NCBI GenBank assembly: GCA_029248885.1
Contig: JAQWIL010000003.1
Span: 1 to 64,000, forward strand
Direction: 5' to 3'
DNA from: Flavobacteriaceae bacterium
GTDB lineage: Bacteria; Bacteroidota; Bacteroidia; Flavobacteriales; Flavobacteriaceae
Length of the DNA stretch: 64,000 nt
Positions 35,757-42,044 of the stretch are shown in pieces (position 1 is the first letter of the stretch; each line of letters begins with the position of its first letter). Both the position numbers and the translations under genes were made by a program. The notes below the pieces were generated by a model, which worked only from the letters and a program-made list of their open reading frames with translations, did not search any database and had not been told where the DNA came from.

Positions 35757-37678
<1,922 letters not shown>

Positions 37679-37705
37679 AATTTAGTATACATTTTAGTTT
37701 TTGTT

Positions 37706-37722
37706 TGGCACGAATCGTGCCA
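37706..37722. promoter_or_regulatory. Perfect 17-bp palindrome upstream of groES, sigma-54 promoter-like
   Basis: TGGCACGAATCGTGCCA is an 8+1+8 inverted repeat starting 27 bases before the groES ATG. Read on the minus strand it has GG and GC at the spacing of a sigma-54 -24/-12 promoter (TGGCACG, four bases, then GTGC in place of TTGC). That would place the transcription start about 19 bases before groES. It may equally be a repressor operator. No CIRCE-type TTAGCACTC element is present. Confidence 0.5.
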
Positions 37723-37794
37723 GTGCAACTTCTTATGAAATCATCTGCCAAATCGTGACATTATGGCATTTTTTCTTGAATTGATTCGGAATGC

Positions 37795-38142
37795 TTATTC
37801 TGCGGGGATTTCTTCAGGAAGAACCTCTGGTAACTCTTCTGGAATTTCCTCAGGAATAATCTCCTCAATGGCCTCGTCACTTAACAAGCTTGAGTCTTCA
37901 AGAGAACCAGGGCGTGATACCATTGAGTTTGACAATAGGATGAGCACCAACAATAGAGTAGCAAGCACCCATGTACTGCGATCTAAGAAGTCTGTGGTGT
38001 TTTGTACACCACCAATCTGTTGTCCGCCACCGCCAAAAGATGAAGATAGACCACCTCCTTTGGGGTTTTGAACCATGATGACAAGCACCAAAAGAAATGA
38101 TACGATGATAATTAGAGTGATAAAAATAGAAAATGTACTCAT
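37795..38142 (-). CDS. secG: Preprotein translocase subunit SecG
   Basis: The 115 residues have two hydrophobic helices (about 3-22 and 57-75) flanking the SecG motif LVIMVQNPKGGGLSSSFGGGG. The C-terminal tail is very acidic (Glu-Pro-Ile rich repeats of EEIPEE), a common variation in Bacteroidota. SecG assists SecYE protein export. It lies 6 bases after the TPR gene in the miaB-groEL cluster. Confidence 0.94.
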   Translation of the reverse strand: MSTFSIFITLIIIVSFLLVLVIMVQNPKGGGLSSSFGGGGQQIGGVQNTTDFLDRSTWVLATLLLVLILLSNSMVSRPGSLEDSSLLSDEAIEEIIPEEIPEELPEVLPEEIPAE

Positions 38143-38766: not shown

Positions 38767-39269
38767 TTGGCTAGGGATTGGTTAAAGATATCTTGGGTAA
38801 TGCGCTCAAAAATTTCTTCATGGGCATTTGCTTTCACACTTTGTAGTTGTGTTGTATCTGCAAAATCATAAAAATAAGAAAATCTTTTTTCAAAATTGTC
38901 CTCTTCATTATTGGTGTTGATATAGCGAACTTTGATGGAGATTGTCAATCTGTTTTGTGCTGCTGTTTGTTGGGCAGTAGCTGTTGTTGGCGTTACCCGA
39001 TATTCTGTGATTTCACCTTCGTAAATCAAATCTCCATTGAAACCTGTCAACTCTAAATTTGTTTGATTTAGCAATACCTCTTGCATGGCATTTGTAAAAT
39101 CTCTGTCAAGTCCAGGCTCAAAGATTGAACCTATGGAGTTGGCTGCGTCGTTTGTGAAAAGGTTGACTTGGACGGTCTCCGCATTTTCAGGTATAGATGC
39201 CCCAGTAAAAGAATAAAATTTACATCCAAACACCAATAAAGACAAACAAAATAGTATAACTTTTCTCAT
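38760..39269 (-). CDS. lptE: LptE family LPS-assembly lipoprotein
   Basis: The 169 residues start with a lipoprotein signal (LLVFGCKFYSF, Cys16), then the LptE-like pattern SFTGASIPENAETVQV and LTGFNGDLIYEGEITEYRV. LptE plugs the LptD outer-membrane pore that inserts LPS. The stop and start overlap neighbours: 1 base with the sigma-54 activator and 7 with the TPR gene. Family similarity is weak in sequence but the pattern and gene order are typical for flavobacteria. Confidence 0.88.
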   Translation of the reverse strand: MRKVILFCLSLLVFGCKFYSFTGASIPENAETVQVNLFTNDAANSIGSIFEPGLDRDFTNAMQEVLLNQTNLELTGFNGDLIYEGEITEYRVTPTTATAQQTAAQNRLTISIKVRYINTNNEEDNFEKRFSYFYDFADTTQLQSVKANAHEEIFERITQDIFNQSLAKW

Positions 39270-40513
39270 TATAAATCAATATCAAATTGTTTGATTTTCC
39301 GATAAAGTGTGCGTTCAGAAATACCAAGTTCGTCGGCAGCGGCTTTGCGTTTGCCGTTGTTGCGTTCCAGTGCTTTCTTGATGAGTTCGAGTTCTTTGTC
39401 GATTAAACTCAAGGTTTCTTCTTCCTCAATTTCTTCTGCAAAGTCAAAGTTATCATCTGTCTTTTTTGGATAGGAATTAGCCTCACTTCTTGAGGGGAGT
39501 AAACGTTCGGGTTGGCTTTGTTCTTCGCCATAAATTTTTTGAATCAGGCCTTCATTGTCGGAGCGAACCTGTTCTGTATTGGAAGAATTCATCAGCTCCA
39601 AAGTGAGTTGCTTTAAATCGTTTAAGTCAGATTTCATGTCAAACAGTACCTTATATAAAATTTCCCGTTCTGAACCAAAATCACTCCCGCCACCAGACGG
39701 TGAAGGAATAACGGCTGGTAAGCGTGTGTTGTGGTCTGGCAGGTACAATCCCAAGGTATCGACTCCAATAGCACGATCTTGTTCCAAAACGGATAGTTGT
39801 TCGGCCACATTGCGAAGTTGTCGAATATTCCCATGCCATTGTTGTCTTTCCAAGAGTTGTTGTGCTGGTTCGTCCAAACGCACAGTTGGCATTTTATACT
39901 TCTGTGCAAAATCTGCTGCAAACTTGCGGAACAGCAAATGAATATCTCCATTTCTTTCTCGCAGTGGTGGAAGTACAATTTCGACTGTACTCAAACGATA
40001 AAACAAGTCTTCTCGAAATTTTCCTTGCTGAATGGCTTTGGGCATATCAAGATTAGTAGCTGCTACGATTCGCACATTGGTTTTTTGGACTTGCGAAGAA
40101 CCGACTTTCAAAAACTCACCATTTTCCAGTACTCGCAACAAGCGGACTTGTGTCGTCAAGGGCAATTCACCGACTTCATCCAAAAATATGGTGCCACCAT
40201 CAGCTTCTTCGAAATAACCGCTTCGCGCGGAGGTAGCACCTGTAAAGGCCCCCTTTTCGTGACCAAACAGTTCCGAATCGATTGTTCCTTCAGGTATAGC
40301 ACCACAGTTGACTGCGATAAACTTGCCGTGTTTTCGCAAAGAAAGTTGATGAATGATTCGAGGAATACTCTCTTTACCGACTCCACTTTCGCCAGTTACC
40401 AAAACAGAAATATCGGTCGGAGAAACTCGAATCGCTTTCCCAATTGCTCGATTGAGCTGGAGATCATTCCCAATGATTTCAAAGCGCTGTTTGATCGATT
40501 GAATTTTGTCCAT
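39269..40513 (-). CDS. Sigma-54-dependent transcriptional activator lacking a receiver domain
   Basis: The 414 residues hold a short N-terminus (about 25), then the AAA+ core with Walker A GESGVGKE, the sigma-54 contacting GAFTGA loop, and Walker B GGTIFLDEV. A linker and a Fis-type helix-turn-helix (KRKAAADELGISERTLYRKI) complete it. It activates RpoN promoters by ATP hydrolysis. With no receiver, GAF or PAS domain it resembles PspF, which is controlled by a partner protein. Spacing to miaB is 2 bases, and it overlaps lptE by 1 base. Its targets are not shown, though a sigma-54-like palindrome lies upstream of groES in the same cluster. Confidence 0.93.
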   Translation of the reverse strand: MDKIQSIKQRFEIIGNDLQLNRAIGKAIRVSPTDISVLVTGESGVGKESIPRIIHQLSLRKHGKFIAVNCGAIPEGTIDSELFGHEKGAFTGATSARSGYFEEADGGTIFLDEVGELPLTTQVRLLRVLENGEFLKVGSSQVQKTNVRIVAATNLDMPKAIQQGKFREDLFYRLSTVEIVLPPLRERNGDIHLLFRKFAADFAQKYKMPTVRLDEPAQQLLERQQWHGNIRQLRNVAEQLSVLEQDRAIGVDTLGLYLPDHNTRLPAVIPSPSGGGSDFGSEREILYKVLFDMKSDLNDLKQLTLELMNSSNTEQVRSDNEGLIQKIYGEEQSQPERLLPSRSEANSYPKKTDDNFDFAEEIEEEETLSLIDKELELIKKALERNNGKRKAAADELGISERTLYRKIKQFDIDL

Positions 40514-42001: not shown

Positions 42002-42044
42002 CCGACATTTTGTCAGTATTTGTTTGTGGTCATCCAATTATTGG

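Follow-up and report, generated by a model that had tools for sequence, protein, structure and literature searches.

What controls the chaperonin genes of a flavobacterium in which a perfect inverted repeat stands directly before groES? In the window, i.e. the whole stretch of 64,000 nucleotides of Flavobacteriaceae DNA analysed here, groES (37400–37678, PF00166) and groEL (35757–37388, PF00118) lie on the minus strand, with secG (37795–38142, PF03840) as the next gene upstream on the same strand. The inverted repeat, TGGCACGAATCGTGCCA on the plus strand (37706–37722), consists of two 8-bp arms around a single base and is placed 27 nt from the groES ATG. An earlier note on this DNA had given its sequence, coordinates and distance to groES, all of which were right on re-reading, and had proposed either sigma-54 or dyad-bound control of the operon.

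The palindrome and the predicted core promoter

Read on the minus strand, the repeat presents TGGCACG (-24 box, 37722–37716) and TGC (-12 box, 37710–37708) at the consensus spacing of sigma-54 promoters, and simple arithmetic from the -12 box predicts a groESL start near 37696 with a leader of about 18 nt. The strict pattern TGGCAYN6TGC has three matches on both strands of the window, two of them being the palindrome seen from its two sides, against 0.93 in shuffled sequences (maximum 4), a count so close to the shuffles that one window proves no promoter and the case rests on conservation. Among 13 congeners, of which 12 were used (G003 was left out as no groES was found), the -24/-12 element before groES is kept in all 12, and their alignment retains the TGGCA, the G and the TG of the -12 box. 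A sigma-54 score of at least 9 was obtained before groES in the same 12 of 12 (1.30 in shuffles) and in 43 of 45 other genomes of the order (6.00 in shuffles). The sigma factor itself is encoded in the window's genome (rpoN, PF04552 on contig C31, E 2.8e-48) and was found in 58 of the 60 genomes searched, this one included, the two misses being drafts 58% and 69% complete. The minus-strand reading of the earlier note is right, TGG standing at -24 and TGC at -12, and a sigma-54 promoter for groESL in this window is very likely.

Taken as a palindrome, the repeat is no more than chance. The window holds four perfect 8+1+8 palindromes, where dinucleotide shuffles give a mean of 1.92 and a maximum of 8. 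In the alignment upstream of groES only 2 of the 12 congeners show perfect arms (besides the window, G002 has perfect 8-bp arms), the other ten having one to four mismatches, and the genome scan that the earlier note had proposed returned a single exact copy in the 1.51-Mb assembly (78% complete). Of the eight arm pairs, three are dictated by the promoter itself, because the sigma-54 spacing sets the GCA of the -24 box opposite the complementary TGC of the -12 box. On the best reading the symmetry is accidental and the element serves, on the minus strand, as a core promoter for sigma-54; the palindrome as a protein-bound operator was rejected, since it is not above chance and its arms are not conserved. 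Of the two kinds of control first proposed, sigma-54 is well supported, by conservation and rpoN, while the palindrome as a bound dyad is not; the operator-like dyad is the second one, described below. By the same symmetry the plus strand of 37706–37722 also reads as a sigma-54 site, facing secG; the sole plus-strand frame downstream of it (37763–38071) lies opposite secG and is probably no gene.

Strict scanning for -24/-12 sites gave 27 matches, counted by strand, in the window's genome against 7 for the reversed pattern, and 2 against 0 in the endosymbiont genome G051. Nearly all matches are inside reading frames, which makes the scan a poor regulon finder; in these two genomes the only ones outside frames are the groES palindrome (both strands) and C15:10725–10739 of the window's genome, and the scan overlooks the promoter before groES in G051, which has GA as its -12 box. 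The C15 site (TGGCACGATATCTGC, L098), the only other strict sigma-54 site outside frames in the window's genome, is found 24 nt before a frame of at least 462 residues.

No sign of CIRCE-HrcA control was found. The best match to CIRCE (TTAGCACTC-N9-GAGTGCTAA) in the window has 6 of the 18 fixed bases wrong, and near groES at least 8 are wrong, in keeping with the earlier statement that no CIRCE element is seen. HrcA (PF01628) was not found in the 78% complete assembly, and CIRCE-HrcA control of groESL was set aside on these two grounds, within the limits of that assembly. In the Bacteroidota rpoH is not known to occur. Both CIRCE-HrcA and sigma-32 likewise put the groESL operon under stress control, but the arrangement proposed here differs from CIRCE-HrcA in being a positive control of the enhancer type.

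A phased dyad upstream of the promoter

On the minus strand, 33 bp upstream of the -24 box, we found a 13-bp dyad of the form TGNCA-N3-TGNCA (TGCCATAATGTCA, 37756–37768), adjoined by a third half-site, TGGCA (37746–37750), that reads TGGCA or TGACA in most, not all, congeners. A second, imperfect dyad at 37746–37768 had been pointed out before; it is real, and these are its better-defined core and its additional half-site. All eight fixed positions are matched in 12 of 12 congeners, and promoter and dyad occur together before groES in all 12, compared with 0.05 of 12 in shuffles. The strict dyad occurs at four places in the window's genome, the groES dyad being one of them, against two control places, and two of the four are within reading frames; in this genome alone the dyad is not significant, so that the weight lies in the comparison of genomes. 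To judge from that comparison, the dyad is probably the binding site of the activator encoded nearby (see below).

Beyond the genus, a promoter score of at least 9 together with at least 7 of 8 dyad positions was found before groES in 39 of 45 further genomes of the order (0.23 in shuffles), a set that leaves out G052 (whose upstream region reads N), the second Cpn10 copy in G037, and the genome G051 (treated with the endosymbionts). Signals were missing before groES in some rpoN-positive genomes of the order, the promoter in G028, G035 and G058 and the dyad in G022 and G041. Of at least 588 loci in named genomes with the activator the best 80 were kept, each titled as Bacteroidota with the exception of one bin titled Rhizobium (L282), and ranging from Flavobacterium to Bacteroides, Pedobacter, Hymenobacter and Algoriphagus. 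In 54 of these best 80 loci groES is linked to the activator, while in the other 26, which were dropped, groES was out of reach. A -24/-12 site scoring at least 10 precedes groES in 54 of the 54 loci holding both genes, and a dyad with at least 7 of 8 positions in 49 of 54; most of these loci are Flavobacteriales, so the deeper branches of the Bacteroidota are thinly sampled.

The distance from dyad to -24 box, measured without any preferred value, is not arbitrary. Dyads with all eight positions lie at gaps of 12, 22–23, 32–35, 42–44, 53–54, 62–64 and 73–76 bp. In a set of 49 promoters with one or two per genus, 21 of 21 such dyads fall within 1.5 bp of 12+10.5k (6.0 expected), as do 33 of 36 (10.3 expected) among the 54 named promoters from the best 80 of at least 588 loci, although these counts are inflated by common descent, and 15 genera share gap 12 among the best dyads without a T tail. 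The phase statistic R is 0.89 and 0.87 in the two sets versus 0.10 in shuffles, and shuffled upstream DNA yields just 0.21 complete dyads per run over the two sets together. Within one endosymbiont genus with genomes of about 600 kb (49 genomes), 40 of 44 dyads are in phase even though the gap varies between 12, 32–35 and 42–44; the misses are at 46 (three) and 35 (one). Full-turn steps also separate congeners, e.g. a gap of 23 in G051 and 33 in G109, and such steps are hard to explain unless a protein sits on one face of the helix.

Complete dyads of some Flavobacteriaceae lie within a T-tailed hairpin resembling the secG terminator. At L256, L264, L267, L271 and other loci of the family, this hairpin holds complete dyads that are phased with the groES promoter (gaps 32–35, also 53), as though one piece of DNA served as both terminator and operator.

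The candidate activator, its possible targets and its fate in endosymbionts

The candidate regulator is encoded at 39269–40513 on the minus strand. It combines an AAA+ domain (PF00158), a conserved mid segment and a Fis-type helix-turn-helix (HTH, PF02954), and Pfam recognizes no known N-terminal domain, which bears out the description of a sigma-54 activator without receiver domain in this cluster. The GAFTGA loop is present in the window's protein, and 79 of the 81 homologs read have GAFTGA or GSFTGA (81 of 87 homologs were readable whole and 6 were left out). In 77 of these 81 only 39 to 43 residues stand ahead of the Walker A motif, and we consider the protein to be without a sensor domain for this reason. 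Across the homologs the mean majority fraction is 0.80 in the AAA+ domain with its lid, 0.77 in the HTH region and 0.71 in the mid segment, against 0.45 and 0.37 in the variable linkers. The mid segment (residues ~281–312, LYkvLFDMk.D.ndLK) is conserved between AAA+ and HTH, no Pfam domain was found in it, and, judged from this conservation, it would be the best candidate for signal input. The HTH is nearly identical between the window and the endosymbionts. A strong ortholog (E below 1e-130) exists in 59 of 60 genomes, and the remaining one, G003, has just a weaker relative.

Among the 25 NCBIfam matches listed, the activator stays below every cut-off, that of PspF included (TIGR02974, the PspF equivalog, 266.4 bits with a cut-off of 443.55), and its relatives in NCBIfam and PDB are general AAA+ proteins only. 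It resembles PspF, a stress-response activator, in having AAA+ and HTH only and no receiver, while it departs from PspF in the conserved mid segment, in the roughly 100 residues between AAA+ and HTH, and in its proposed chaperone targets. A second PF00158-type activator is encoded in the window's genome (C19:11488–12180); its frame has 387 residues and its AAA+ domain is 47% identical, and larger genomes among those searched have up to 8 activator matches.

The dyad is not confined to groES. The strict form, TGNCATWATGNCA, was found in 16 of 20 genomes searched, at 40 places versus a single control place, and the four genomes without it are the four rpoN-negative ones of the set. In seven genomes of about 600 kb it stands before groES in seven and before grpE in six, and the grpE dyads are followed at gap 13 by a sigma-54 site (Pfam identified two of these grpE genes, and likeness of the first residues the other four). 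In the window's genus it precedes hsp20 in 8 of 9 genomes (Pfam confirmed one hsp20), and a -24-like box stands at gap 12 in seven of them, the window's own genome by eye, and at gap 44 in one, although this box is mostly TGGTT and so falls short of consensus; the remaining strict dyads of the genus, other than those of groES and hsp20, are inside reading frames. Upstream of dnaK in the window's genome TGACACCCTGTCA is followed after 12 bp by TGGCATAGTCATTGA (by eye). The dyad also occurs near miaB, upstream of the activator gene: in four of the seven genomes of Blattabacterium size a perfect copy is placed directly before the likely miaB start, with no sigma-54 site there, and in the window a T-tailed hairpin before miaB (42003–42015) holds TGACAAAATGTCG, with 7 of the 8 fixed positions. 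From its position, this dyad could possibly serve autoregulation of the activator.

The endosymbiont G051, at 345 kb, retains rpoN; a lone activator gene lies about 0.3 kb upstream of its groES, and its only strict dyad stands before groES. Its family comprises 68 genomes, all except G112 between about 0.17 and 0.65 Mb; we take the genus of about 600 kb to be Blattabacterium and that of 170–200 kb to be Sulcia. Fifty-five of them possess rpoN and 13 do not. In every one of the 55 a single activator match is strong (PF00158, E below 1e-60) and all others are at 1e-11 or worse, while among the 13 rpoN-negative genomes a strong match, in a 281-residue frame, exists in G111 alone. This activator-like frame (C1:18664–19149), whose genome yielded no rpoN and is without both signals before groES, may be a remnant or belong to a foreign contig. 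With groES found in 66 of the 68 genomes (G118 and G120 are without it), promoter and dyad together precede it in 51 of the 55 rpoN-positive genomes (0.03 in shuffles), whereas neither promoter nor dyad was seen in any of the 11 rpoN-negative genomes that have groES; these negatives fall into three genera and so represent at most a handful of independent losses. The rpoN-positive exceptions are G068 and G126 with neither signal, G125 with a weak promoter and a 7/8 dyad, and G074 with a promoter-like site and no dyad. In G126, G125 and G068 some other target must be what keeps rpoN, if anything does, and G126 (309,299 bp), which we take to be Walczuchella, speaks against the retention of rpoN for groESL in that lineage. 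For Walczuchella, the accessible text of its genome paper calls rpoN retention unusual and ties it tentatively to nitrogen (PMC3971599).

Known promoters, rival explanations and the proposed circuit

A sigma-54 promoter of groESL is already known in flavobacteria. In Flavobacterium psychrophilum, starts mapped by their 5' ends and bearing a sigma-54 motif (SM4) precede groES-groEL, lon, dnaK, grpE-dnaJ, htpG and clpB, and in its accessible text the paper suggests that the motif clusters might match distinct activators, assigning none and naming no operator for these genes (PMC9723704). A study of 2025 predicts GroEL, GroES, GrpE, DnaK, DnaJ and IbpA as sigma-54 targets in the Bacteroidota, most of them in Flavobacteriia, and its accessible text notes that for some organisms activator specificity is unavailable (PMC12316311). 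So far as these texts go, the former shares with our locus the sigma factor, the operon and similar companion genes, to which a proposed activator and operator, with phasing and co-loss, are added here, and the latter the same chaperone targets, but as promoter predictions only; its statement that GroES of Bacteroides thetaiotaomicron depends on sigma-54 was not relied on because it cites a Blattabacterium genome paper. The novelty is therefore smaller than the earlier note had claimed, given a mapped start and predicted chaperone targets, and what we did not meet in print, within the mostly open-access main texts searched, are the operator, its phasing, its assignment to the activator and the co-loss.

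Several other explanations of these signals have to be weighed. The palindrome might be the operator of a dimeric repressor or activator acting on a sigma-A promoter, in the manner of CIRCE-HrcA, a reading suggested by its closeness to the start and by the perfect arms in the window and in G002. We regard this as highly improbable, as such palindromes are not above chance, mismatches break the arms in 10 of 12 congeners, where TGGCA and TG of the sigma-54 element persist, the assembly has one copy and neither CIRCE nor HrcA was found, and no sigma-A box like TAnnTTTG was seen in the 117 bases before groES. Another account has the dyads as parts of terminators or other hairpins rather than operators, and the Flavobacteriaceae in which TGACAAGCTGGCA or a similar complete dyad is followed by a T run do lend it some colour. 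It is very unlikely all the same: with T-tailed cases removed, 11 of 11 and 16 of 17 dyads in the two promoter sets are still in phase, the T run at the window's dyad is on the opposite strand and not in the direction of secG, the same dyad recurs at hsp20, grpE and dnaK, 12–13 bp from the -24 box and upstream of it, and none of the 11 rpoN-negative genomes has it before groES.

It is also conceivable that the sigma-54 promoter is real and that a different activator drives groESL, or that the dyad serves another regulator. The second PF00158-type protein of the window's genome could be the acting one, and larger genomes offer still more candidates. Against this, the 55 rpoN-positive endosymbionts, G051 included, have a single strong activator, the ortholog of the one in the window, and most keep promoter and dyad, while the HTH is nearly constant from window to endosymbionts and groES linkage holds in 54 of the best 80 of at least 588 loci; we judge this alternative unlikely. 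The best explanation, and on the sequence evidence a likely one, would be a sigma-54 groESL promoter, a phased dyad and a linked activator that together form a stress switch. That the activator encoded at 39269–40513 acts at 37756–37768 also appears likely, from the helical phasing, the co-loss in endosymbionts and the dyad before hsp20, dnaK and grpE.

In such a switch the activator would bind the upstream dyad, reach the sigma-54 RNA polymerase waiting at the groES promoter and open it through ATP hydrolysis, so that groESL, and dnaK, hsp20 or grpE where they bear the same signals, would be made upon protein misfolding. PspA holds PspF, and by analogy a free chaperone or other inhibitor might hold the activator, perhaps via its mid segment. 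Misfolding or heat as the signal, with chaperone feedback on the mid segment, is plausible; heat is suggested by the kind of genes controlled.

Control of the chaperonin in Bacteroidota without CIRCE-HrcA is poorly known, and the signals described here name a candidate regulator, a candidate operator and a spacing rule. We are evenly divided on whether an ancestral Bacteroidota circuit for protein stress (one receiverless activator, a phased TGNCA-N3-TGNCA operator, and groESL, dnaK, grpE and hsp20 as targets), and not nitrogen control, explains why rpoN and a single activator persist in Blattabacterium-like endosymbionts, whose genomes measure about 0.3 to 0.64 Mb. The circuit may offer a concrete reason for the survival of rpoN in such tiny genomes: where rpoN has been lost, the groES promoter and operator have been lost too.
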